From Syntrophaceae bacterium CG2_30_58_14 (GTDB lineage: Bacteria > Desulfobacterota > Syntrophia > Syntrophales > UBA5619): a stretch of DNA of 32,403 nucleotides. Each line of letters starts with the position of its first letter. Position 1 is the first letter of the stretch. The notes beneath the pieces were generated by a model, which was not told the DNA's origin, did no database searches, and saw nothing but the letters and a program-made list of their open reading frames with translations. The stretch is taken from contig MNZQ01000046.1 in assembly GCA_001873745.1 (NCBI GenBank), forward strand, positions 1 to 32,403, given 5' to 3'. The position numbers were made by a program, and so were the translations under genes. Below, in pieces: positions 258-17,640 of the stretch.

Positions 258-923
258 TCAAATTCTATGATCTTCCCGTATAACAACCCTGCTTCCCCCA
301 TGGATGCTTGTACCCCAGTTCTTGGGGGCCTTAATCGATTTCAGTCGATCGAGTTCACCGATATTCTTGAGCCTCTGATAGATGAGCTGCCAGGCGCAGG
401 GCCGATCGGCTCTCACCTCGCACCGGTCCTCCCGCGAGCCGCTGCACGGGCCGTTCAGCATGTGCTTCGCACACCGGGTGACGGGGCAGATGCCGCCGTA
501 CTCATGGAGAACGCATTTACCGCAGGCGATACATTTTTCCGTCCAGGTGGCCCGCTCTTCGAGGATACCAATGAACACCGTATCGAGTCCTGCATATACC
601 GGTTTGTCATACCGTTCGGCAATCGCCTGGACCCCGGCGCCACAGCCCAGCGAAAGGACGACATCGTTTCTTTTGATCGTATCTGCCGCCTTTTCTATAA
701 AAACGTTATCACACTGCCGTTCAATCGTCAGCTCTTCAACCTCGAACGCGAGGTTCTTCAGCCTCGAGGCGATGCGCAGCGCCGATGCATTGATGCTGAC
801 TTCGCGCTCCCCTCCGGCCAGGCAGACCGTGACGCATGTGCCGCAACCCAGCACGAGGATCTTCTTTTGGCCTTTCAGTATATCGATGAGTTCGGGGATG
901 CTTTTCCTTTGTGCTACTATCAT
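258..923 (-). CDS. metV: MetV-like methylenetetrahydrofolate reductase C-terminal domain protein
   Basis: This 221-residue protein matches the MTHFR_C/MetV family, the small iron-sulfur or zinc partner of MetF in acetogens and related anaerobes. The N-terminal half carries the LGCGTCVTVCLAGG motif and later SLGCGAG. The C-terminal third is cysteine-rich (CIACGKC, GGICPVTRCAKHMLNGPCSGS, then DRCEV and RPCAW), the family signature. MetV passes electrons to the flavin of MetF for reduction of methylene-tetrahydrofolate to methyl-tetrahydrofolate in the cytoplasmic methyl branch of the Wood-Ljungdahl pathway. It is the last gene of the operon; its start overlaps the upstream mvhD-like gene by four bases. 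metF lies about 12 kb upstream in the same transcription unit rather than adjacent. Confidence 0.9.
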   Translation of the reverse strand: MIVAQRKSIPELIDILKGQKKILVLGCGTCVTVCLAGGEREVSINASALRIASRLKNLAFEVEELTIERQCDNVFIEKAADTIKRNDVVLSLGCGAGVQAIAERYDKPVYAGLDTVFIGILEERATWTEKCIACGKCVLHEYGGICPVTRCAKHMLNGPCSGSREDRCEVRADRPCAWQLIYQRLKNIGELDRLKSIKAPKNWGTSIHGGSRVVIREDHRI

Positions 924-1369
924 ATCCTAATCTCCGCATTTTTTGATGGGTTCATGCTCTTTAACGGGCTTGGCCCGAGGTTTTTCAGGGTGGCCAGCAT
1001 CTCATTGATGTAATCGACAAGCGGTCTGGCCTGTGCCGCCGATATGTTGATCATGCGGATGCGCTCCTCCTCCAGCCCGCTCTCGGAAAGGAATTTCCGC
1101 GTATAGCCGACCCTGCCCCTGGCCAGAAGATTGCCCTCCGTAAAATGGCAGCCGCCTTCCAGGCATCCCGCGACGAGAATTCCATCGGCGCCCTTTTCGA
1201 AGGCCTTCATAAAAAACTCCACTTCCAGCCTTCCCGTACAGGGTGTTCGGATGATGCGCACATTCGGGGGATATTGCAGTCTCATGGAACCTGCCAGATC
1301 TGCGGCGGAATAGGAGCAGTACTGGCAGCAGAATGCAATAAGCAGTGGTTCAGAATTCTCGTTACTCAT
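920..1369 (-). CDS. MvhD/FlpD-like hydrogenase iron-sulfur subunit
   Basis: A 149-residue protein of the MvhD (hydrogenase delta subunit) family, which carries a [2Fe-2S] cluster and links an electron donor to HdrA. Visible family motifs are FCCQYCSYSAADLAG near residue 13, RTPCTGR near residue 41, and AGCLEGGCHFTEGN near residue 67 followed by a conserved arginine region. Its start overlaps the end of the giant HdrA gene by four bases and its end overlaps metV by four bases, so the three are probably translationally coupled. In Moorella thermoacetica MvhD is part of a MetFV-HdrABC-MvhD complex; the same composition is seen here. A second, more divergent family member lies at 14031-14450. Confidence 0.9.
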   Translation of the reverse strand: MSNENSEPLLIAFCCQYCSYSAADLAGSMRLQYPPNVRIIRTPCTGRLEVEFFMKAFEKGADGILVAGCLEGGCHFTEGNLLARGRVGYTRKFLSESGLEEERIRMINISAAQARPLVDYINEMLATLKNLGPSPLKSMNPSKNAEIRI

Positions 1370-4300
1370 AGAATGCCTCTGTCTTCATTACAGTCGACAG
1401 TCAAATGGTGCTCCAACAGATTTTCCAGCATCGCATTGAACTGCATAGACTCAAAATGGTTGAGCTGAATCGCACAGGCGGGACATTCGGAAGCGCAAAT
1501 GCCGCAGCCCATGCATTTCGCCGCCGTAATCTCCCCCTTGTTGTCAACGTTCGCAAAGGGTGCGCCGTAGGGGCAAACATGAACACAAGTCATGCAGGAG
1601 ATACACTTGTCCTGATTAACCTCCGCGACTTGGGCGCCGACATCCAGATGCGTTTTGGAGAGGACGGTCGCCGCCCGCGAAGCGGCCGCACGGGCCTGGG
1701 AAATATTTTCATCGATCATCTTCGGCGAATGGGCCAAACCACAGAGATAGATGCCTTCGGTGGCGAAATCCACAGGGCGCAGCTTAACATGCGCTTCCAG
1801 GAAGAACCCGTCGGCATTAAGCTGCAATTTGAGCATGTCCGATAGTTGTCTGTTACCGGCCGGCGCACTGATTCCGGTGCTCAGGATGACATGATCGGCT
1901 TCAATTTCCACCCTGTCGTTGACATCGGGGCTGTCAACCTGAACCAGAAGCCCGTTGTCCCGTGAGACCACCGGCGGCTTCCCTTCATCATACCGGACAA
2001 AGACGATTCCGGCGTCGCGGGCCATCCGGTAATACTTCTCTCTGAAACCATAGGTCCTGATATCGCGGTAAAGGATATAAATATTGGCATCCGGATTTTT
2101 CTTCTTGATGCTCAGGGCATTCTTAACCGCCATGGAACAGCAGATGCGGCTGCAATAGGGATGTTTATCATTGCGGGAACCGACACATTGGATCATGATG
2201 ATATTTTTGCCATGACCTTTAAACTTGTCCGCGTGGAGGAGCTGTTCCAGTTCTATTTGGGTGAGGATATTTTCAGACTCCCCGTAAAGGAATTCTCCGG
2301 TTTTCGCCGGTTCCGCTCCTGTCGCCACAATAATGGCGCCACAGGATATTTCAGTCCTTGCGATATCGCCCTGACCGTTGCCCTTTCCTTTTTCCGCTAT
2401 CGTCACTAAAAATTTACCGATATGTCCGTTAACTTTAGTCACTTCACTATGGAGATAAACTTTGATGTTTCGGTGATTTTGCGTCTGGTATAAAATATTT
2501 GCCGTAAAGAAATATGGATCATCGTTTTCCAGTACAGAATGGATGTTTAAGATCTGACCGCCCAAGGTTCCTGATTTTTCGATGAGAGATACTTTGAATC
2601 CCTGATTCGCCAGAGAAAGGGCTGCGGTCATGCCGCTCAATCCTCCCCCAATGACCAGACCGTCCTGGTTGATGGCCAGGGATTCTCCGACAAGCGGCTT
2701 CAGGAACCTTGCGCGTGCGATGGACATTCTCACGAGTTCAATGGCCTTCAAGGTGGCGACATCCGGTTCGGATGAATGCACCCAGGAACATTGATCCCTG
2801 ATGTTGGCCAGTTCGAAAAGGTAGGGATTTAATCCGGCCTCACGCAAGGTTTCGCGGAAAAGGGGTTCATGGGTCCGGGGCATGCAGGACGCGACCACCA
2901 CCCGGTTAAGCTGGAATTCTTCGATCCGCTTCTTGATTTCGGAAAGGCTCGCGTCCGAACAGGTGTACATGGTATGTGAGGCAACAACCACATGGGGGTC
3001 CTTGGAAATGGCCTCGGTCACCTTTTCCACATCCACCGTGGCCGCGATATTGATCCCGCAATGACAGACAAACACGCCGATCCTCGGTTCGTCGTCGCCG
3101 ACATCATGCTCGGGTGGATAGGTCTTTTTCGTGATGAGGGTATTGCGCGCCGAAGCCAAAAGCTCCATGGCCATGGAGGCGGCAGCGCTGGCCTGGGTTA
3201 CGGTCTCCGGGATGTCCTTGGGTTCCTGGAAGGCGCCGGCCACGAAAACGCCGGGGCTGGATGTCTCCAGGGGAAGAAACCGGCTCGTTTTGCAGAAACC
3301 GAACTCGTTGAGTTCGATGCCCAACTGCGCCATGCTCGCCGAAACGTTAGGCTTGGGATCCAGGCCGACGGCCAGGACGACCAGGTCAAAATCGCGCTCC
3401 ACCTGTTTGAAGTTCCCGTCCACATAGCGAAGCCTGATGTCCATTGATCCCGGAACCTGGATGGCCCTGGAGGGAATACTCTTGATATATTCTATATTTT
3501 CCTTGCTTCTGGCGCGTTCGTAATACTGGTCGAAGTCTTTCCCAAAAGCCCTGATATCCATATAAAAGATAGTCGCTTGGAGACCGGCGCTATGTTCACT
3601 GGCGACCAGCGCCTGTTTTGTCGTGGCCATGCAGCAGATGGAAGAACAATATTCATTCCCGCATTTGGCGTCGCGGGAACCGACGCACTGTATCCATGCG
3701 ATTCTTTTGGCTTCCTTTCCGTCATCCCGGCGGACGACGTGTCCGGCAAAAGGACCGGCGGCCGACAGCATCCGCTCGAACTGCACGCTGGTCAAAACGT
3801 TCCGGTACCGGTTGAAACCGTATTCCCCTTTGCGTTTGGCGTCGAATTCTTCAAAGCCCGGTGTCAGGATGACGGAGCCGACATTTAGCGTGATGGTTTC
3901 TTCCGCCATGGCATGGTCGACGGCTTTCTTGTCGCAGGCGGAAACGCACGCCATGCATTCGGAACAGAGGGCGCAGTTCAGGCAGCGCTCGGCCTCCGCC
4001 ACGGCTTCCTCCACGGAAAATCCGGCTTCGATCTCCCGGAAATCAGCCGTCCGCTCGCATGCCGGAAGCATTGCCGCATCGGCCCGCTTTTTCTTTTCGA
4101 CGTCGTCCGTGGAAGGCAGGAGCTCGTCTGCCAAGGGTTTCAAGGTATCTGAAAAACGGGCCGCCCGGAGCTCCTTTCCGTTCAGGTAGCGTTCGATCGA
4201 TTCGGCGGCCCGCTTCCCCGCTGCCACGGCCTGGATGACACTCCCCGGTCCGGTCGCGTTTTCGCCGCCGGCAAAGATTCCCTGGACCGATGTTTCCAGC

Positions 4301-5868
4301 GTCACGGGATCGGCCACGAAGCAGCCCCGCTCGGTCCCCACACCGCAGTGCTTGAGCAGATCGGGGCTGACCGCTTGGCCGATCGCCACGATGATCTGAT
4401 CGGCGTTGATGGTTTTCAAATTCTCTTGATTGTAGAGGGGGCTGAAGCGGCCATTTTCATCGAAGACGCGGGTGCATTGCCGAAGCTCGATGGCGGTGAC
4501 GGAGCCGTCGCCGATGATGCGGTTCGGCCCACAGCCGTTGTTGATCGTAATGCCCTCGGCGAGCGTGGCCTCGATCTCCTCCTTATAAGCGGGCATCTCG
4601 TCGCGCTTCTCCAGGGCCACCATCTCGACCTGCTTTGCCCCGAGCCTGAGCGTCGTCCGCGCCACATCCACGGCCACGTTGCCGCCCCCGATGACCAGGA
4701 CATGCCTGCCGACGCAGGGCTTATCATCCTTGCTTCCGGCCTGTCTCAGGAATTCCACGCCGAAATCGACGCCGGACTTCTCTTCGCCGGGAACCCCCAG
4801 TTTCCTGCTCACGTGCGCGCCGGCGCTGATGAAGACGGCTGCGTTTTCCTTCTGCAACTCCTCGATCGTTTTATCCTTGCCGATGCGGCAGTTCAAGACG
4901 ATGGTGACGCCTTTTCGCCGGATGAGTTGCACCTCGTACGCGAGAATGTCCTTGGGGAGGCGGTAGGGCGGGATCCCCCAGAGGAGCATACCGCCTGCGC
5001 TGCTGGAGGCTTCATAGACGGTCACGGCAAACCCGCTGTTCGCCAGATCCCCGGCCGCCGTGAGTCCCGCCGGTCCCGCACCGATAATGGCAATTTTCGG
5101 GGCATCCGCCGGGGGGGATTTCTCCTCCGGCAAGGCCAGTTCGCCCGCTTTCACCATCCTGATTTCCTGGTCCACGGCGAACCGCTTGAGCTGCCGTATG
5201 GCGAGCGGCGCATCCACGTTGGAACGGGTGCAGGCGCTCTCGCAGGGGGCGGGACAAACCCGGCCGCAGATCGCAGCGAGGGGATTTCTCTCCCGGATCA
5301 GGTCCGCCGCCTTGACGTACTCCTTCTTCTTGATCAACTGGATATACCCCTGGACGTTGATGTTGGCCGGACAATTCATCTTGCATGGGGAATGGCCTAA
5401 CTTGAGGATCCTGGGCTTGTTGGGTATCGCCTGTGGGGAATATTTCTGGATGACTTTCCTTTTCCCCAGATCGCGGTTGTAGCTGTCGTCGATTTCGACC
5501 GGGCAGGCTTTGGTGCAGTCCCCGCAATCGTTGCAGATCTTTTCGTCGATGTAGCGGGGAGACCTTTTTACATAGGCCTTGAAATTACCCGGCGTGCCTT
5601 CCAGCTTCTCGAGTTTGGAGAGCGTGAGGATTTCTATATTGAGATTGCGGGCGCACTCGACCAGCTTGGGGGAGACGATACAGGTCGCGCAATCGCCGGT
5701 CGGAAAGGTTTTATCCAGATGGGCCATCATCCCGCCGATGGCGGCCGAATTCTCGACCAGATAGACCTTGAACCCGGAATTGGCCAGATCGAGGGAAGCC
5801 TGGACGCCGGCTATGCCCCCTCCCTGCACCAGTACGGCGCCAATTTTTTTCTTCTTACTCTTTTCCAT
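1366..5868 (-). CDS. Giant HdrA-GltD-HdrA fusion flavoprotein (HdrL-like)
   Basis: This 1500-residue protein combines three flavin/nucleotide modules. Residues 10-125 begin a HdrA module (GGGIAG; CATC at 60-63; ferredoxin motif CNDCGDC...CP at 112-122). Residues about 155-565 are a GltD/NfnB-like insertion with the cysteine segments CKMNCP, CGRVCP and CESAC, then FAD motif GAGPAG (263-268) and NAD(P)H motif GGGNVA (394-399). HdrA 1 resumes at about 629 with further cysteine clusters and IQCVGSRDAKCG (727-737). A second HdrA runs from about 928 to the end (CHCG 935; GGGLSG 1074; IQCVGSRNDK 1226) and closes with two ferredoxin motifs at 1422-1432 and 1452-1462. HdrA carries the bifurcating FAD in known Hdr complexes. 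Large HdrA-type proteins (HdrL) are known in sulfate reducers. It starts four bases after hdrB. Function here is inferred: NAD(P)H oxidation and electron distribution to HdrBC, MvhD and possibly the glutamate-synthase-like proteins. Confidence 0.92.
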   Translation of the reverse strand: MEKSKKKKIGAVLVQGGGIAGVQASLDLANSGFKVYLVENSAAIGGMMAHLDKTFPTGDCATCIVSPKLVECARNLNIEILTLSKLEKLEGTPGNFKAYVKRSPRYIDEKICNDCGDCTKACPVEIDDSYNRDLGKRKVIQKYSPQAIPNKPRILKLGHSPCKMNCPANINVQGYIQLIKKKEYVKAADLIRERNPLAAICGRVCPAPCESACTRSNVDAPLAIRQLKRFAVDQEIRMVKAGELALPEEKSPPADAPKIAIIGAGPAGLTAAGDLANSGFAVTVYEASSSAGGMLLWGIPPYRLPKDILAYEVQLIRRKGVTIVLNCRIGKDKTIEELQKENAAVFISAGAHVSRKLGVPGEEKSGVDFGVEFLRQAGSKDDKPCVGRHVLVIGGGNVAVDVARTTLRLGAKQVEMVALEKRDEMPAYKEEIEATLAEGITINNGCGPNRIIGDGSVTAIELRQCTRVFDENGRFSPLYNQENLKTINADQIIVAIGQAVSPDLLKHCGVGTERGCFVADPVTLETSVQGIFAGGENATGPGSVIQAVAAGKRAAESIERYLNGKELRAARFSDTLKPLADELLPSTDDVEKKKRADAAMLPACERTADFREIEAGFSVEEAVAEAERCLNCALCSECMACVSACDKKAVDHAMAEETITLNVGSVILTPGFEEFDAKRKGEYGFNRYRNVLTSVQFERMLSAAGPFAGHVVRRDDGKEAKRIAWIQCVGSRDAKCGNEYCSSICCMATTKQALVASEHSAGLQATIFYMDIRAFGKDFDQYYERARSKENIEYIKSIPSRAIQVPGSMDIRLRYVDGNFKQVERDFDLVVLAVGLDPKPNVSASMAQLGIELNEFGFCKTSRFLPLETSSPGVFVAGAFQEPKDIPETVTQASAAASMAMELLASARNTLITKKTYPPEHDVGDDEPRIGVFVCHCGINIAATVDVEKVTEAISKDPHVVVASHTMYTCSDASLSEIKKRIEEFQLNRVVVASCMPRTHEPLFRETLREAGLNPYLFELANIRDQCSWVHSSEPDVATLKAIELVRMSIARARFLKPLVGESLAINQDGLVIGGGLSGMTAALSLANQGFKVSLIEKSGTLGGQILNIHSVLENDDPYFFTANILYQTQNHRNIKVYLHSEVTKVNGHIGKFLVTIAEKGKGNGQGDIARTEISCGAIIVATGAEPAKTGEFLYGESENILTQIELEQLLHADKFKGHGKNIIMIQCVGSRNDKHPYCSRICCSMAVKNALSIKKKNPDANIYILYRDIRTYGFREKYYRMARDAGIVFVRYDEGKPPVVSRDNGLLVQVDSPDVNDRVEIEADHVILSTGISAPAGNRQLSDMLKLQLNADGFFLEAHVKLRPVDFATEGIYLCGLAHSPKMIDENISQARAAASRAATVLSKTHLDVGAQVAEVNQDKCISCMTCVHVCPYGAPFANVDNKGEITAAKCMGCGICASECPACAIQLNHFESMQFNAMLENLLEHHLTVDCNEDRGIL

Positions 5869-5871
5869 GAT

Positions 5872-6750
5872 TCACGACCTTACCGATGACCGAACATGAT
5901 TCATCGCCTCTTTGGGCGAAACGATCAGCTTGTTGAGTCCAAGCGCATCCTCCGATATGCCCAGACACGATCCCATGAGCTGCGAAATGTAAATGATCGG
6001 CATGTCGTAACGTCTGCCGGCGGCCTTGAAGATATCGTCCTGCCGCATATCCAGGTTGATCTGGCACATGGGACACGCCACGGCCATGCATTCGGCTCCG
6101 GAATCTTTGGCCATGGCAATGATCGATTCGGAAAGTTTGACGACGAGATCCGACCGGGTCAGCGTGAGCGAGCCGCCGCAACATTCAACCTTGTGCGGCC
6201 AGTCCAGCCCTACGCCGCCCATGGCGTTGATGAGCCTGTCCATGTAAACGGGATTCTCCGGGTCATCGAACCCCGCGACCTCCGGAGGGCGCACCATGAG
6301 GCATCCGTAGTACGAAGCCACCTTCAACCCCCCGAGGGAGTGGGTCAGCGCTTTTTTGAAGGCGTCCAGCCCGATATCCTCGATCAGGATTTCCACGAAA
6401 TGCCGCACCTTGACGGCGCCGTCATAATCCCTCCCCAGGGCGGCTGAAACGATCTCCCGTTTTTTCGGATTCGTGGATATTTCATGGTTGGCGATCTTCA
6501 TTCGGCTGTAGCAGGAGGCGCAACTGACCACCATGTCGAGCCCCATATCCTTCACCTTCAAAAGATTGACGGCGGCAAGCGACAGGGAGAGATCGTGATC
6601 GACCTGGTGGGCCATGGTGGTGCCACAGCATGACCAGGCCTCGGGTTCCGTAAACTCGATCCCCAGCGCGCGGGCCACGGCCATCGTGGACAGGTACAGG
6701 TCGCGGGCCGTCGATTCCGCCGAACACCCCGGGAAATAGGCGTATTTCAT
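5872..6750 (-). CDS. hdrB: CoB-CoM heterodisulfide reductase subunit B-like protein (HdrB)
   Basis: This 292-residue protein has two copies of the CCG cysteine-rich domain that binds noncubane [4Fe-4S] clusters in HdrB. In the first, Cys9, Cys41-Cys42 and Cys77/Cys80 (SCASCY) are visible. In the second, Cys150 (YYGCL), Cys190-Cys191 (ECCGG) and Cys226/Cys229 (ACPMC) are visible. Length and motif spacing fit the family. In non-methanogens HdrB does not necessarily reduce a heterodisulfide; with HdrA and HdrC it forms an electron-transfer module, here next to MetVF. Its start overlaps the hdrC stop (ATGA), and the HdrA fusion begins three bases downstream. No key cysteine of the set appears to be missing. 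Confidence 0.93.
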   Translation of the reverse strand: MKYAYFPGCSAESTARDLYLSTMAVARALGIEFTEPEAWSCCGTTMAHQVDHDLSLSLAAVNLLKVKDMGLDMVVSCASCYSRMKIANHEISTNPKKREIVSAALGRDYDGAVKVRHFVEILIEDIGLDAFKKALTHSLGGLKVASYYGCLMVRPPEVAGFDDPENPVYMDRLINAMGGVGLDWPHKVECCGGSLTLTRSDLVVKLSESIIAMAKDSGAECMAVACPMCQINLDMRQDDIFKAAGRRYDMPIIYISQLMGSCLGISEDALGLNKLIVSPKEAMNHVRSSVRS

Positions 6751-7304
6751 GTTGACTTTTTCCTTGTTTTTTCTAAGTTGTTGAATATCCGCTTCACCAT
6801 TTTCTTATCGGCGCCGTGGGGGGGCAAGAGGGCGATCTTTCCTTTTTTCAGGATCATGGGGAGTTTATCCAGATCCTTTGCGTAAGAGGCCGTGCCGGCT
6901 TTATACAGGACCATGGCCCCCAGGTCGTAGGTCCGTCCGAAGGTCTTGATGGTCCCCAAAAGCAGCTTGTTCATCAGGGGCATGTTCCCCTGCGGCTTCG
7001 CGGCGCCCCTCGCGCGCAGGGCATCCATGACTTCGGCCATGTTGATTTCCATGGGGCAGCGGCTGAAACAGGTGGCGCAGGAGGAGCAGACCCAGATGAT
7101 TTCACTGTCCAGCAGTTCCTCCCCGGCTCCCAGTTGCAGCTTTTTGATGATTTCCGAAGGGGACGACGATGTAAAGCCCGACACGGGACATCCATTCGTG
7201 CACTTTTTACATTGAAGACAGGCATTGACGTCGATTCCCGATAGGGCTTTAACCTGATCGATGATTCCTTGGCCGGCGGCTTCTCTTTTAATTTTTATTG
7301 GCAT
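6747..7304 (-). CDS. hdrC: Heterodisulfide reductase subunit C-like ferredoxin (HdrC)
   Basis: A 185-residue iron-sulfur protein with two [4Fe-4S] motifs: CLQCKKCTNGCP at residues 29-40 and CSSCATCFSRCP at 73-84. This is the arrangement of HdrC, which carries electrons between HdrA and HdrB. The rest is mostly helical and ends in a lysine-rich tail that overlaps the HdrB start by four bases. ATG at 7304 is preceded only by a distant purine stretch (GGAAGAG), so translation may be modest. It follows the gltB-like gene after a 66-base gap holding a short hairpin, the longest gap inside this part of the operon. Confidence 0.92.
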   Translation of the reverse strand: MPIKIKREAAGQGIIDQVKALSGIDVNACLQCKKCTNGCPVSGFTSSSPSEIIKKLQLGAGEELLDSEIIWVCSSCATCFSRCPMEINMAEVMDALRARGAAKPQGNMPLMNKLLLGTIKTFGRTYDLGAMVLYKAGTASYAKDLDKLPMILKKGKIALLPPHGADKKMVKRIFNNLEKTRKKST

Positions 7305-7340
7305 ATTGATATCTACTCTTCCGGGTAGTTGGAATAATCC

Positions 7341-7363
7341 GGGCTTCAGGATGGCTGAGGCCC
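7341..7363. other. Intra-operon hairpin between the gltB-like gene and hdrC
   Basis: GGGCTTCAG and CTGAGGCCC can pair over nine positions with one mismatch or wobble and a five-base loop. No T-run follows on either strand, so it is not a clear intrinsic terminator. Being in the only sizeable gap between the glutamate-synthase-like genes and the Hdr genes, it may be an RNA processing or stability element. Seen in the sequence; function inferred. Confidence 0.35.
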
Positions 7364-7370
7364 TTGTCTA

Positions 7371-10052
7371 TCAGCCGACGACGGCGCCGGCTTCGTATAA
7401 CGCCTCTTCTTCCAGAAATTCTTCATCGAGCAAGTCATCTTCGAGCTCTTCGGCAACTTTCCCGGCAACGAACGGCACGACCTTGCGGTAGACCTGCCGC
7501 GGGTCTCGCCTCTCGCCGTTCACGTTCAGGAGGTCTTCGATTTGGATATGGAAGAGCCGCTCATTCTCTTCCAGATAGGGGAGGATGAGCTCCCAGTCTT
7601 TTTTTGTGAGCGGGGCAATCATCCCGCCGTTGAGCTGCTGGTCCACCAGGGTCTTGCCGGGGTCGCGGACATAGATGGCCCCTCCCGACGCCAGGGAAAA
7701 GATGTTGCTGCCCGGGTAGGGCTCATTCATCAGGATAAGGCCGCCGTCGTCGCCGAATCTCACGCCGTTCAGGACGACGAAACCACCGCCGTTGTGGGGA
7801 TCGCCCGCCATGAAGGACTCGCCCAGAAAGTCGAGGCAGGCGCCGTTGATGACCACCCGGGGCTTCCCGACGGAGTTGATCAACGGCCGCCCCGCGGCGT
7901 TCCCCATGACATAGATCTCCCCGCCCTTGGCGCCGTAGAGGAAGGTCTGGCCGACGTCGCCGTAGATGACCAGTTTCCCTTGCTTGGTGATCTGCCCCAC
8001 CTGGTCCTGGGCATTACCGTGGACCGCAATCGTCATCCCATCGATTCCGGAAGCCAGATAGTCGCCCGAACTGCCGTAAACGTCGATGGTCACATCATCG
8101 GTCTCGGGCCCGAGGCCGTTGCCGATGTAGCGCTGGCCGATGCAGCCGAAGGAGATGAAACGCCGCCATCCCTTCATGTAGGCGTCCATCAGGAGGGAGG
8201 CATCGCTTTGCTCCCCTTCCGGGGGGAAGCCGAAAGCGTCGATCGCCAAAGTCGTTTCATTCTGCATCGGGGTGCGCAGGGCGTTGCGGGTGGCAAAGTC
8301 AATCAGTCGGTACTCGTTGCCCGGAGCATCCTGGCTCCGGTCAAGGCGCGGTAATCCTTTTAAAAGCCTGGAGAGCTCGCCTCTCAGGATATGGAGGAGA
8401 TGGCTTCGCTTCTTCGCTCCCGTCGGGTAGCGGAGATCGTTGAGCATGGTCAATGCTTTGATCGCTATCCCGATCGTGTTCGTATTCTTGGCGTTATCGG
8501 TCATCAGTCGGCAGATGGCGCGTATATCGTCATAACCCCAAGCGGATATATGGTCGCGAAGATACCGGTACAGCGCCGCGGCGTCGCTTTCTACAAATCC
8601 CCTGATCTTTTGTTCGATATCACGCCCGACTTCATACTGCAGATAGGTTTCCGATGCAAAATCATATGGCTCAGCGCCCTTCGGCAGCGAAACCGGTTTG
8701 CCGAATTTGTCAGTGCACGTCATCCGCAACCGGCCGGATTCCCGCGTGAGGTTGAAAATAAAAGCGCCTCCGTCGGTATGGCTTCCTCCGCGGGCGTTCC
8801 AGTAGCGGTCGGCCACGGGACATATGCGAAGGTCATCTTTGGAGAGACTGAGCAGCGTTGCATCGATGGCTTGCTTCTCCGAGGCAATGAGCCCGACCTG
8901 CACCTCTCCGTCGCAGAAGGCGAAAACCTGGGGACGCAACATGGCCGTATCCGTTATGCCCAGAAGCTGGAATTGTTTCTGGGCCACATTGTTCCGGGCG
9001 ATAATAAAAAACCAGGGCCCATCCGGGGAGCCATGGATATGGGTGGCCTGTATGGCCCGGTAGAGTTTCTTCTTCGCTTCCGGAAGGCGATCAAAGTCCA
9101 ACTCGGAGGTTGGCGCCAGGGCTTCGATGATATGTTCCAGGGAATAATGGTATGTCCGACTTAATAGATCGAATAGCAGAACGGAGACCTCGGTGTCCGT
9201 AAGAAATTGCGGCCAAATGTGGCGTTGCAGGAGATGTTCGCATACAGAATGATAATTGGCGAAATCCCCGTTGTGAACAAGGGCGATGTTGATGCCCGTA
9301 AAGGGGTGGGCGCCGGCGGGATGCCATACGCGCCCCTTGGTTGGGAAACGCTGGTGAGCGATCCAAACATGGGCGCAGAGGTCCTGGACTTTATAATAAT
9401 CCACAATGGCTTCGGCGAATCCGACCACTTTAAGAATCATAATATTTCGGCCATGAGAGAGAACAAAGGCTCTCTTGTCACCCATGGCAGAGTAAAACAT
9501 CTGGTTGAGCTTGAAGCTATTCTGATTGACATACTCGTCTTCCGCTTCCCGGCGGTCGAGCTCCCGAAGCTGATGGTCAAGGATAAAACGGTCGAGGACA
9601 TCCGCCTTGACCCGCACGAAATAACGGCACACATCGGGAGGTTTCACCTCCAGGCCGGGGATCGTTTTCCAGTCTGCAACCGTATCGAGCATCTGCGATA
9701 CGGCGACATCAAAAAGGGGCGTGATAAAACTGCTTTCTACGTCATCCTTGACGTCCGGCTCAAGGAAGGCGATATGCAGCATGTAATGATCTTCCAGGAG
9801 ATCCCGGCTGACACCCAACTGTTCCGGAACAAATCCGACCGCAGCGATCCCGCCGCCCTTCCCGTTTCCACGGTTGTGCATCTGCTTTGAAGGCTCGTAG
9901 ATATGTTTTCCGGGAACAGGTTCGGTACAACAGAAACCGACAACACCGCACCCTCCCTCTTCTTCGCTCTTTCGGACGGTCACCGGCAGATCGAATTCTT
10001 CGATCAATTTCTTCTTTGAGTCTATAAGCCGTCGTATCAGTTCGTTATTCAC
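7371..10052 (-). CDS. Glutamate synthase-like protein: class II glutaminase plus GXGXG domain
   Basis: An 893-residue protein with an N-terminal class II glutamine amidotransferase domain and a C-terminal GXGXG beta-helix domain, the first and last parts of GltB. Cys35 sits in GGCGVVGF after a 34-residue leader, matching the cleaved propeptide of GltB. HQRFPTKGRVWHPAGAHPF near 230 and VHNGDFANY near 258 are glutaminase substrate and oxyanion motifs; TDTEV is further on. The C-terminal part, about residues 640-850, has the repeating glycine pattern (GDVGQTFLYGAKGG, GGFVVLNG). The central FMN/glutamate synthase domain is absent and is supplied by neighbouring genes. Probable role: release of ammonia from glutamine for a multi-subunit enzyme. 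The start is GTG, in a GTGA overlap with the upstream gene. The acidic C-terminal tail (EELEDDLLDEE) is unusual. Confidence 0.88.
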   Translation of the reverse strand: MNNELIRRLIDSKKKLIEEFDLPVTVRKSEEEGGCGVVGFCCTEPVPGKHIYEPSKQMHNRGNGKGGGIAAVGFVPEQLGVSRDLLEDHYMLHIAFLEPDVKDDVESSFITPLFDVAVSQMLDTVADWKTIPGLEVKPPDVCRYFVRVKADVLDRFILDHQLRELDRREAEDEYVNQNSFKLNQMFYSAMGDKRAFVLSHGRNIMILKVVGFAEAIVDYYKVQDLCAHVWIAHQRFPTKGRVWHPAGAHPFTGINIALVHNGDFANYHSVCEHLLQRHIWPQFLTDTEVSVLLFDLLSRTYHYSLEHIIEALAPTSELDFDRLPEAKKKLYRAIQATHIHGSPDGPWFFIIARNNVAQKQFQLLGITDTAMLRPQVFAFCDGEVQVGLIASEKQAIDATLLSLSKDDLRICPVADRYWNARGGSHTDGGAFIFNLTRESGRLRMTCTDKFGKPVSLPKGAEPYDFASETYLQYEVGRDIEQKIRGFVESDAAALYRYLRDHISAWGYDDIRAICRLMTDNAKNTNTIGIAIKALTMLNDLRYPTGAKKRSHLLHILRGELSRLLKGLPRLDRSQDAPGNEYRLIDFATRNALRTPMQNETTLAIDAFGFPPEGEQSDASLLMDAYMKGWRRFISFGCIGQRYIGNGLGPETDDVTIDVYGSSGDYLASGIDGMTIAVHGNAQDQVGQITKQGKLVIYGDVGQTFLYGAKGGEIYVMGNAAGRPLINSVGKPRVVINGACLDFLGESFMAGDPHNGGGFVVLNGVRFGDDGGLILMNEPYPGSNIFSLASGGAIYVRDPGKTLVDQQLNGGMIAPLTKKDWELILPYLEENERLFHIQIEDLLNVNGERRDPRQVYRKVVPFVAGKVAEELEDDLLDEEFLEEEALYEAGAVVG

Positions 10053-11635
10053 GATTTATGCTCCACAACATCATTGGTATAATCAAGATGCATCAGGAGA
10101 TCGGAACGTCCCCTGAGCTCGGATACGCTTCTCAGGCCCAAACGCTGGAGAATGCTGACGAGTTCGTTTCGCCAGGCGTTGTACATATTAATAATCCTCT
10201 GGGCTCCCCATTCGAGATTAATCTTGGGCACAAGCATTTTGTCGGTCGTCGCTATGGAACGGGGACAGCCGCGACCCGTTGAACAGCGTCCGCATCGGAC
10301 GCATCCCAGGGCCACCAGTTCCGCTGTGCCGATGACCACGCCATCGGCGCCGAGGGCGATGGCCTTGGCGACATCGCAAGGGTTGCGGATACCGCCGCTG
10401 GCCATCAGGGTCACTTGATCCCGGGCGCCTTCATCCGTAAGAAAGTTATGCACCTTGGAAATGGCGTATTCGATCGGCATGGCGATATTTTTCTTGGCGA
10501 TGTCCGGCGCGGCGCCCGTGCCGCCATAGCCGCCGTCCAGATGGATGATATGCGTTCCTGCCGAGTAGCTTCCCACGGCAACCATGTCCACGTCGTTGGG
10601 AGTCGATACTTTCGTCGAGATCAGCGCCCGCCGGTTGATGTGCTTGACCCAATCGATATGCTTCATGTGGTCTTCGATGGAGTAGACGCTGTGGAACGGA
10701 AAGGGGGAGAAGAGGGATATCCCGATGACCGTCTCGCGCATCTTGGCGACGGCTTCGGTATTCTTATCCCCCAGCAGATGCCCCCCCAAGCCCGGTTTTG
10801 CCCCCTGGGCGTATTTGAATTCCACGATGCGAACGCGCTGGATGGTTTCTTCGCGGACACCAAAAAGGCCTGTGGCAACCTGCGTGATCATGTGATCATC
10901 GTAAGGCCGCATCCGTTCCATAAAACCGCCTTCACCCGTACAGGAGAAGGTATTCCAGGCCACGGCCGCCCGGGCCTTCGAAAGCTGAGTCGTATTGCTG
11001 ACGGAGCCGAAGGACATGCCGCCGCCATACCACGGCACATCGATTCGGATTCTGGGACGGCCGTCATGGCGGCGATTCAGTTCAAGGCTCGTATCGATCT
11101 CATCTTTTCCCAGTTCGATGGGCGGTTTTCCCGGAAACTTGAACCGGATGCGATCGAAGCCTCCGCCCGAGTCACCCGTCTCGAATTCATAGCCGTAATC
11201 TGCGGAGGGAACCTCGCCTCTTTCCGCCATTTTCCAGGTGGCGAGGATCATTGCGGCGGGCCATCGGTAATCGCCGAGGGCTTTCATCATCGGGTTTTCC
11301 TGTATGCGCAGGGCGCCCCGGGGACATGCCGTGATGCAATAGCATCCTTTTGCTTCGCATTTTGGCCCGAAACAGAGGTGACTCTTGGGGAGGGCAAAGT
11401 ATTTATAACCGGGCTTTTTGACATGCACGCCCTGGGGGCACATGGCCATGCATTGACCGCAGGCCGCACATTTCTCCTCGTCCCGCAGGATAATATATTT
11501 GGAGATCTCATTCCGGTATCTGGGCAAAGCGGGCCGGATGGTACGCGCCTGCTGGAATTGAGGCGTACGGGTCTTCCGTGTTTTCTCCGGAAGGATCTCT
11601 TCAAGCTTGCAATCTGTTTCCAAAAATTCTGCCAA
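10049..11635 (-). CDS. Glutamate synthase-like FMN domain protein with N-terminal ferredoxin domain
   Basis: A 528-residue protein of the archaeal-type glutamate synthase (GltB central domain) family. The N-terminal part has ferredoxin cysteines CAACGQCMAMCP (56-67) and a second set from Cys88 to Cys104. The FMN-binding barrel follows with SCTGEGG, KPGLGGHLLG and HLDGGYGGTGAAP, then ASGGIRNPCDVAKAIALGAD. A terminal iron-sulfur motif CVRCGRC...CP starts at about residue 445. In glutamate synthase this domain reduces 2-iminoglutarate formed from 2-oxoglutarate and ammonia. The likely start is TTG at 11635, overlapping the upstream gene by 35 bases, with GAGGAA a few bases before it; there is no ATG before the first cysteine cluster. 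It is followed by the glutaminase/GXGXG gene in a 4-base overlap. Confidence 0.88.
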   Translation of the reverse strand: MAEFLETDCKLEEILPEKTRKTRTPQFQQARTIRPALPRYRNEISKYIILRDEEKCAACGQCMAMCPQGVHVKKPGYKYFALPKSHLCFGPKCEAKGCYCITACPRGALRIQENPMMKALGDYRWPAAMILATWKMAERGEVPSADYGYEFETGDSGGGFDRIRFKFPGKPPIELGKDEIDTSLELNRRHDGRPRIRIDVPWYGGGMSFGSVSNTTQLSKARAAVAWNTFSCTGEGGFMERMRPYDDHMITQVATGLFGVREETIQRVRIVEFKYAQGAKPGLGGHLLGDKNTEAVAKMRETVIGISLFSPFPFHSVYSIEDHMKHIDWVKHINRRALISTKVSTPNDVDMVAVGSYSAGTHIIHLDGGYGGTGAAPDIAKKNIAMPIEYAISKVHNFLTDEGARDQVTLMASGGIRNPCDVAKAIALGADGVVIGTAELVALGCVRCGRCSTGRGCPRSIATTDKMLVPKINLEWGAQRIINMYNAWRNELVSILQRLGLRSVSELRGRSDLLMHLDYTNDVVEHKS

Positions 11636-13007
11636 AAGCTTCCTCCTCGAGCTGCTCGAAAAACATGGCCCGTCCTACGTCTCCCCGCAGGCGCCGGGCG
11701 TCTCGCATCCCCATGGCGCCCATCAGCTCGATCAACTGGTCGTGCCAGGCGCCGATTAAATTCGTCATCCTGCCCACGCCGTAGTCAAAGCTGATCTCTT
11801 GAATTCTGGCGGGACAGGCCGAGCCCTCTTCGCAGCGCTGGCACAGGTGGCATTCAAGCCCCACCAGCAGGGGCAATTCGATCGAAACCAGATCGGCGCC
11901 GCAAAGAACCCCCTTGGCCAGATGCTCCGGGAGGGCGATCCCGCCGCCGGCGATAAGGGTGACATTGTCTCTTTTACCTTTTTCGATCAGGGCCTTGTGA
12001 ACCTTGCGGGTCATGTCCTTGATGAACAGGGGGCTTTCCGCTCCGATCTGACGGCCGTTCATGTCGGCGACGATGTGAATGACCTCCACGTCCCCATCCG
12101 CAAGCTCGATGGCCCGCTGCATGCCGTCGGCCGTCAGTTCAACCCTCACAGATACGATGATCCCCGGATGGATTTGCTTCAGTTCCCGGATCCGGCTCTT
12201 CACGTCCTGATCATCCTGTATTTCCGCAAGCCGCGTCTCTTTTAAGATGTCCCCAGGAGGCATCCCGGCGCCGGATGCGAAATAAAAGGCGATGTGGGGC
12301 AGGACTTTTTCGGCATCCTTCTCGAAGAGGGGCCATTTTTGCGAATCCATGATGGCAATGAGATCGGTCTTCACCGCCGTCTCTGCGATCACGGCATCGA
12401 GCTTCGGGAGGGAATACTTCTCCGGAATCCGGTCGATGATCAGGGGCATCGGAATGGACAGGATCGGAGGCAGGGAAGAAACCACTTCATCCCCGCTCGT
12501 GGCGAGGAAAGCAGGTTTTTGCCCGATGTCGACGGCGGAGCTGATATATTCGCGCCCATGGATGCCATCCCGGGTCGGCCGCACGATTTCCGACATATCG
12601 GTCCACATGGAATCAAAGCCTTCGCCGGAAAATTTCCCGCCGTAACCAGCTCCGGAAACGGGAATTTTAGCCGTCTCCGCCTGGGCCCATGTTGTTTGAA
12701 TAATCTCCGGTGTCCAATAGCTGTTGCCCAGCTTTTCGTATTCGGGATTAATGGAGAGGCATAAAAGATTCTTGGTACAATCCTGGACGCAGGAAAAGCA
12801 GCCCATGCAGTCGAAGAAGAGGGCGTCCACACTCTCGATATTGCGTATATATTTTATCTCATCCCGGTACCGGTCATAAACACAGGCCTTCTTGACGCAG
12901 TTGTGGCACCGGGCGCAGTCTTCCCGCTAGTCCACGATGCCGTACTTGCCGATGCGGGGACGTCTGGGGGGAACGGGTTTTGTCGTGATGTGATATTTCT
13001 CTGGCAT
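11601..13007 (-). CDS. Second glutamate synthase-like FMN/ferredoxin protein, interrupted by an in-frame TAG
   Basis: The frame starts at ATG 13007 (purine-rich GGAGAG upstream), 23 bases after the metF stop, and ends at TGA 11601: 468 codons if the TAG at codon 27 is ignored. Codons 1-26 end in GKYGIVD; after the TAG comes REDCARCHNCVKKAC, a [4Fe-4S] motif (C31, C34, C37, C42). A second motif, CMGCFSCVQDC, follows near residue 69, then an FMN-binding domain and CHLCQRCEEGSACP near the C-terminus. The longest uninterrupted frame, from GTG at 12830 (409 residues), would lack the first cluster. TGG to TAG is a single transition, so tryptophan is the likely ancestral residue. It may be a real nonsense mutation, a sequencing error, or read through. 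The protein is a paralogue of the next gene in the operon. Confidence 0.75.
12927..12929 (-). other. In-frame amber codon within the ferredoxin-like N-terminus
   Basis: CTA on the plus strand gives TAG on the coding strand, between GTG GAC and CGG GAA. The frame on both sides reads as conserved protein. TAG is used as an ordinary stop elsewhere in this window (metF, the distal mvhD-like gene, the nifU-like gene and the DJ-1 gene), so general reassignment of TAG is not supported. Confidence 0.85.
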
Positions 13008-13030
13008 ACGATCAGCTCTCCATCGTCGTG

Positions 13031-14014
13031 CTATCGTTTAACGGACCATCCGGAGGCTGATAGAATCGCCGGCAATGTCTCCTCTTTCCCGCCCGTAAGA
13101 AGGTGTATCCCGCGCAAGCCATTCATGCTCTTAAGTTTATCGATCGTCTCGACACAAATCGCCAGCCCTTCTTTCTTCTGGGCCTCTCGATCTCCGGCGG
13201 ACTTCAATCTTTCAATGACGGGAGCGGGTATCTGGAACTCCGTATACTTCTTCGCGAGTGTTTCCGCTTCCTCGGCGCTTTCCAGGGGGAAAACACCTGC
13301 TAAAATCGCCGCCTTGCCGGTTATGCCGGCCTGCTTGGCCGCTTCAAGCCAGAGCCTGAATCCCTCGACGTCAAACACGGCATGGGTCTGGATAAAATCC
13401 GCTCCGGCTTCGACCTTCTGCATCAGCCTGATGATGCCCAAATCCATGGGTTTCAGGCAGGGGTTGGCGCCGGCGCCGGCGATCACCGGAAAGGGGCCGT
13501 TGATCCTCTCGCCGTTCAGGAGTTCTCCTTGGTCGCGCATCTTCTTGACGAGGCCAACCAACTGCGTGGAATCGAGATCGTACACGTTCGCCGACTCGGG
13601 ATTGTCCGTTAAAGTCTGATGATAACCAGAAAGGCAAAGGATGTTCCTGATTCCCAGGGCTGCCGCACCCAACAAGTCGGATTGGATGGCGATCCGGTTT
13701 CTGTCACGGGTGACGACCTGGCAGATCGGTTCAATTCCCGATCGGGCAAGGATAACCGATGCCGCCAAGCTGGACATGGAAACGCCGAAAGGGTTATCCG
13801 CGACATTGACCGCCGACGGGACTTCCGCCAGTGCCTGCAGGGCCGCCTCGATCGCCGTCCCTGCAGTTTCCGCCTTGGGGAGGTATTCAGCCGTAACGAT
13901 GAAATCTCCACTCTTCAACTGGTCATGAAATGGTTTTTCGTTTTTCACTATGCTCACCGATCCGTTATGTTTTACCCGTATCAGGGCAGGGATACACTCA
14001 CTGACATCGTTCAT
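13031..14014 (-). CDS. metF: 5,10-methylenetetrahydrofolate reductase (MetF)
   Basis: A 327-residue FAD-dependent TIM-barrel enzyme of the MTHFR family that makes 5-methyl-tetrahydrofolate. Visible family features are the substrate/flavin region FIVTAEYLPK, NVADNPFGVSMSS, QVVTRDRNRIAIQSDLLGAAALGIRN in segments, LCLSGYH, GADFIQTHAVFD and AILAGVFPL. The C-terminus IHLLTGGKE resembles the family ending. ATG at 14014 gives an N-terminal extension of about 22 residues; GTG at 13948 (VKNEKPF), with GGTGAG upstream, is an alternative start closer to family length. The cognate MetV is the last gene of the operon and MvhD/Hdr genes lie between, which supports an Hdr-linked, non-NADPH type of MTHFR. 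It ends in TAG. Confidence 0.9.
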   Translation of the reverse strand: MNDVSECIPALIRVKHNGSVSIVKNEKPFHDQLKSGDFIVTAEYLPKAETAGTAIEAALQALAEVPSAVNVADNPFGVSMSSLAASVILARSGIEPICQVVTRDRNRIAIQSDLLGAAALGIRNILCLSGYHQTLTDNPESANVYDLDSTQLVGLVKKMRDQGELLNGERINGPFPVIAGAGANPCLKPMDLGIIRLMQKVEAGADFIQTHAVFDVEGFRLWLEAAKQAGITGKAAILAGVFPLESAEEAETLAKKYTEFQIPAPVIERLKSAGDREAQKKEGLAICVETIDKLKSMNGLRGIHLLTGGKEETLPAILSASGWSVKR

Positions 14015-14030
14015 TCACATGGCCTGCAGC

Positions 14031-14450
14031 CTACGCCGGCAAGCTGCGGATTTTTTCACGAAACGCCGCCAACTTTGCGACGATTTCTCCGCTTCCCTTG
14101 CCGTTCATGGGCAGGACTGTGATGCGATTAGGGCCCATTCCCGCCTCTTCGAGAAGGCGATTCGCCTCTTCCGCTCTTTTAGGCGCCCGTAAGTTGCCTT
14201 CCAGGTAATGGCATTCATTTTTCGGGCAAGTGACCAAGGCAAGACCGTCCGCCCCTGTCTCAAATGCCTTCAATAGATAGAGGAGGTCCGCTTTGCCGGA
14301 ACAGGGAAGGCTGATGATGGTGTACTTGACGCCTTCCTCTTCGCGGGACATTGGGTCAAATTCGGTTCCGTCAAGACAGTTCGAACAATAAAAAATATGC
14401 AATTTTATTTTCTTATGATCGGTAACGGTCATTTTCTCCGCCCTTTCCAT
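14031..14450 (-). CDS. Second MvhD/FlpD-like iron-sulfur subunit
   Basis: A 139-residue relative of the MvhD family, more divergent than the copy at 920-1369. Recognisable elements are FYCSNC, LPCSGKADLLYLLKAFETGADG in segments, and TCPKNECHYLEGN followed by KRAEEANRLL. The second half of the first cysteine motif (the alanine-alanine-aspartate part) is not conserved, so cluster binding may differ. ATG at 14450 overlaps the out-of-frame end of a truncated regulator; ATG at 14432 has GGAG closely upstream and is an alternative start. It is the first complete gene of the long operon, 16 bases before the metF ATG. The role is probably electron transfer to or from MetF or the HdrA fusion, but nothing in the sequence identifies the partner. 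Confidence 0.8.
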   Translation of the reverse strand: MERAEKMTVTDHKKIKLHIFYCSNCLDGTEFDPMSREEEGVKYTIISLPCSGKADLLYLLKAFETGADGLALVTCPKNECHYLEGNLRAPKRAEEANRLLEEAGMGPNRITVLPMNGKGSGEIVAKLAAFREKIRSLPA

Positions 14451-17330: not shown

Positions 17331-17640
17331 CCGGGAAATATCGCGATGGCTTTGGGGTGCATCCGGAGATTCGCCGGCAGACTGTCAATTCAAGGCATAT
17401 TTGAGCCTGTTCCGGACAAGCCCGTCTCATCGCCTCTTGTTCATGATTCGTTATTCCTAAATATATTCATCCCAGGAGTATTCAGGGTCCCGATAAAGGT
17501 GATCGTCATTCATTTCCGCTTGAAATGATGTAAGCCTATCAAAATCACCGGATGCTACCTTACAGGAAGATATACTTTTTTCACAAGTACGCTTAAACCG
17601 GACGGACCGGTTTTCAAGAAGATCGCCAACTGAAATGCGT
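17331..17640. other. Intergenic region between glnK and the cupin gene
   Basis: No confident gene is seen. CCCGG and CCGGG at the glnK 3' end could form a weak hairpin with no T-run. On the minus strand one frame is open from inside the cupin gene to TAG at 17457 and ends in a protein-like stretch, MNDDHLYRDPEYSWDEYI, which could be the tail of a lost small gene. There is no ribosome-binding site to support it. Confidence 0.3.

Follow-up and report, generated by a model that had tools for sequence, protein, structure and literature searches.

A single in-frame TAG at a conserved tryptophan position in a ferredoxin/glutamate-synthase-like gene of a Syntrophaceae bacterium

In the genome of Syntrophaceae bacterium CG2_30_58_14, an otherwise conserved ferredoxin/glutamate-synthase-like gene carries a single in-frame TAG at codon 27, where its close homologues have a tryptophan codon. 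This TAG is an ordinary one-base nonsense change. We favour a real change, either a recent nonsense mutation or a strain variant (rough probability 0.53), which we judged slightly more likely than an assembly error; these weights are our judgement and were not computed. The assembled genome showed no machinery that would decode TAG as an amino acid; the codon is therefore attributed to an ordinary new mutation or to an error of assembly, and not to an expanded genetic code.

The window (the whole stretch of 32,403 nucleotides that was analysed) holds on its minus strand, from 13007 to 11601, one frame of 468 codons that begins with ATG and ends with TGA when the TAG is read through. The plus strand reads CTA at 12927-12929, hence TAG on the minus strand, and this is the only stop inside the frame; neither a frameshift nor a second stop was found across the rest of it. 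The original prediction of an in-frame TAG in a glutamate-synthase-like gene was thus confirmed. The interrupted gene sits between metF and a second glutamate-synthase-like gene, and the features concerned are as follows.

11601 to 13007, minus strand: ferredoxin/glutamate-synthase-like gene with one TAG inside, delimited by its read-through translation, Pfam and full-length homologues (82-95% identity) from the same genus and order
12927 to 12929, minus strand: in-frame TAG, codon 27
12882 to 12917, minus strand: first four-cysteine motif, CARCHNCVKKAC, residues 31-42, downstream of the TAG, read from the sequence
12828 to 12830, minus strand: GTG codon 60, the start of the mechanically called 409-residue open reading frame, read from the sequence
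12777 to 12809, minus strand: second four-cysteine motif, CMGCFSCVQDC, residues 67-77, read from the sequence
13031 to 14014, minus strand: metF (methylene-THF reductase), ending in TAG at a codon that is TAA or TAG in close homologues
10049 to 11635, minus strand: second, longer glutamate-synthase-like paralogue, intact in the sequence

The part of the frame before the TAG is genuinely coding, because the homologues share the start and length of the frame and align with it from its first residue, metF ends 23 bases before the ATG, and a GGAG lies approximately 10 bases before the same ATG. Extension of the 409-residue frame upstream through the TAG had been proposed to restore a start codon, a ribosome-binding region, the spacing to metF and a four-cysteine motif, and all of these were recovered: the extended frame regains C31/C34/C37/C42 beside C67/C70/C73/C77, that is, both 4Fe-4S motifs, with the TAG shortly before the first. 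The GTG at codon 60 was rejected as the true start, since coverage by the homologues begins at residue 1 and a protein started at codon 60 would lack the first Fe-S motif. A third cysteine group occurs at residues 386-398 of the read-through protein, which matches the Pfam family PF01645 (Glu_synthase) over residues 232-434 with 58.5 bits against a gathering score of 20.4; a match to Fer4 (4Fe-4S) at the N-terminus, residues 25-80, remained below threshold. With a PF01645 match above the cut-off and two CxxCxxC-type motifs, the read-through protein resembles FMN/ferredoxin glutamate-synthase-like proteins, but the gene is short and divergent, and it is paired with a longer paralogue in a metF-hdr cluster.

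Among 100 related genomes, six others from this order, including two from its own genus, have full-length homologues with 82-95% identity, and none of these homologues has an internal stop. A scan of a species-level genome collection yielded 80 loci, including the same six, whereas a protein search of a plasmid collection gave only weak partial matches. The tryptophan that had been expected at codon 27 in the homologues was borne out, as the codon is TGG in 42 of 42 distinct homologues that cover the position with at least 55% identity. More distant homologues have W, F, R, G or other residues there, and TAG occurs in this column in no homologue, close or distant. In the closest homologue, from the same genus and 95% identical, the 39 bases around the codon are the same except for TGG in place of TAG. 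Given the TGG of the homologues, including the closest one, this genome has therefore departed from the ancestral codon by a single G-to-A transition (C-to-T on the plus strand).

The rest of the gene is under purifying selection: in comparison with the closest homologue, the remaining codons gave a dS of 0.22, a dN of 0.024 and a dN/dS of 0.11, and codons 28-80 alone contain one nonsynonymous and seven synonymous differences. When the amino-acid changes were polarised with four other homologues, four besides the stop fell on the gene's own branch and two on the sister branch. The dN/dS together with the four own-branch and two sister-branch changes is compatible with a lesion that is very recent. 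The state of the remaining gene is matched equally well by a very recent mutation and by an error, and on its own it is no argument for read-through.

A sequencing or assembly (consensus) error, in which case the codon in the cells would be TGG and a normal full-length protein would be produced, is a serious candidate to which we give rather less than an even chance. An isolated difference of one base, strong purifying selection with no other lesion, and a draft assembly of 204 contigs all speak for such an error, as does the fact that every other gene of the conserved cluster is open; nothing specific speaks against it. The cluster also bears on the favoured reading, a genuine recent mutation, and counts against it, in that the loss of one central subunit is less expected where the rest of a ten-gene cluster is intact and conserved across phyla.

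Pyrrolysine, encoded by in-frame UAG, has been documented in some marine Deltaproteobacteria (PMC8318568), and the original prediction listed it among its options. The part of that list naming a TGG-to-TAG mutation or an error stands, but the pyrrolysine part does not. In the assembly (3.04 Mb, 96.7% complete, with approximately 3% of the genome possibly missing), the PylS N-terminal model TIGR03912 had no match, and the best matches to the PylS C-terminal model TIGR02367 (29.1 bits against a cut-off of 178), PylD (21.4 of 150 bits) and PylB (81 of 348 bits) were of the sub-cut-off kind that most control genomes likewise give. Among these controls, which included no split-PylS bacterium, only the archaeon Methanosarcina acetivorans exceeded the Pyl cut-offs. 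No pyrrolysine-type trimethylamine methyltransferase reached its family cut-off in the genome, and PylS exceeded its cut-off in 0 of 297 related genomes, ten of the same genus included. The gene shares with known pyrrolysine-containing genes, such as the trimethylamine methyltransferase genes of Methanosarcina and marine Deltaproteobacteria (PMC8318568), an in-frame UAG flanked on either side by coding sequence; it differs from them in that pyl machinery is absent at cut-off, the product is not a methylamine methyltransferase, and the UAG is not conserved, its column holding the expected Trp and, among the homologues, never Lys. Pyrrolysine was therefore rejected; it is effectively refuted as far as a 96.7%-complete assembly permits, and we consider this reading extremely improbable.

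The tRNA complement and the use of TAG elsewhere in the genome bear on any other form of decoding. All 41 tRNAs above the Rfam cut-off were typed by ARAGORN; the sole tRNA-Trp has a CCA anticodon, and no CUA anticodon, as expected of pylT or an amber suppressor, occurs among these 41 standard tRNAs, although the tRNA model could miss a pylT that is very divergent. Two weaker matches proved to be a tRNA-Sec and a tmRNA fragment. The tRNA-Sec gene, with a UCA anticodon, lies on another contig (G000 C188:22620-22717; locus L180, 61-158), so that selenocysteine is probably encoded by some UGA codons of the genome, whose in-frame TGA codons merit care in annotation. TAG ends 31 of the 159 long open reading frames that have a stop in approximately 381 kb sampled from the genome, the window included, and it ends metF, which belongs to the same operon as the interrupted gene, at a conserved position; it is thus used as a terminator, and a genome-wide reassignment of UAG was rejected on the same count of 31 in 159. 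Scans of coding potential turned up just one further TAG that looks interior, and it lies in a decaying gene, but these scans are a rough check of low sensitivity, the target itself falling below their threshold.

Against this background, useful read-through of a real TAG, through a suppressor tRNA missing from the assembly or through natural leakiness, with some full-length protein as the result, is unlikely. The strong purifying selection after the TAG and the approximately 3% of the genome that may be missing are in line with such read-through, but a mutation so recent that it has left no trace would account for the selection equally well, and both the tRNA set and the regular use of TAG as a terminator, including in metF just upstream, weigh against it. 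As for the suppression that had been offered as an option, the 41 standard tRNAs include no dedicated amber suppressor, and useful read-through keeps the small chance given above. A mixed arrangement, in which some UAG codons are read as an amino acid (probably Trp) by a suppressor tRNA absent from the assembly while UAG otherwise terminates, appears very improbable.

Under the favoured reading, that of a real change, the amber stop TAG would have arisen from the conserved Trp-27 codon TGG by a single G-to-A transition, as a recent nonsense mutation or a strain variant, and translation from the true ATG would end after 26 residues, such that the full-length protein would be lost apart from low natural read-through. 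A restart at GTG-60 or ATG-68 would yield a protein without the first 4Fe-4S motif, and on inspection neither codon has a convincing ribosome-binding sequence upstream. If the TAG is real, the protein product is probably lost; we infer both the presence of the TAG in the cells and the inactivation of the protein. The gene resembles a recent pseudogene with a single nonsense change, known here from assembled sequence: it has one in-frame stop and is otherwise intact, its relatives are uninterrupted, the ancestral sense codon lies one substitution away (TGG to TAG), and nothing distinguishes it from that class. Broken genes do occur in this genome, as locus L161 holds at approximately 10850-11130 (minus strand) a lipoprotein-like alpha/beta-hydrolase remnant that is truncated at the C-terminus, carries an in-frame TAG after GCS and looks like a decaying pseudogene. 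Near 17519 of the same locus (minus strand), a frame of 1154 codons follows directly after the TAA that ends a frame of 826 codons; it begins with coding-like sequence that has no common start codon for 27 codons, and a displaced start or an in-frame stop is possible there.

The ten-gene cluster around the interrupted gene spans 258-14450 of the window on the minus strand and comprises flpD, metF, the two glutamate-synthase-like genes, a GXGXG/GATase-like gene, hdrC, hdrB, an HdrA fusion, mvhD and metV. HdrA is fused to a GltD/NAD(P)H-oxidoreductase-like region in a protein of 1500 residues. Apart from the gene with the TAG, all genes of the cluster are open and intact and are conserved across phyla, and the order metF-glt-glt-gxgxg-hdr recurs in loci of Syntrophaceae, Phycisphaerales, Chloroflexi and Bacteroidia. 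A brief literature search found no description of this combination of genes.

The main value of these results lies in annotation. A record of this gene should describe a full-length glutamate-synthase-like subunit that is interrupted by an internal stop, instead of a protein of 409 residues that lacks its N-terminus, and pyrrolysine use should not be listed for the genome. If the mutation is real, it would have hit one subunit in an otherwise intact and widely conserved metF-hdr cluster.
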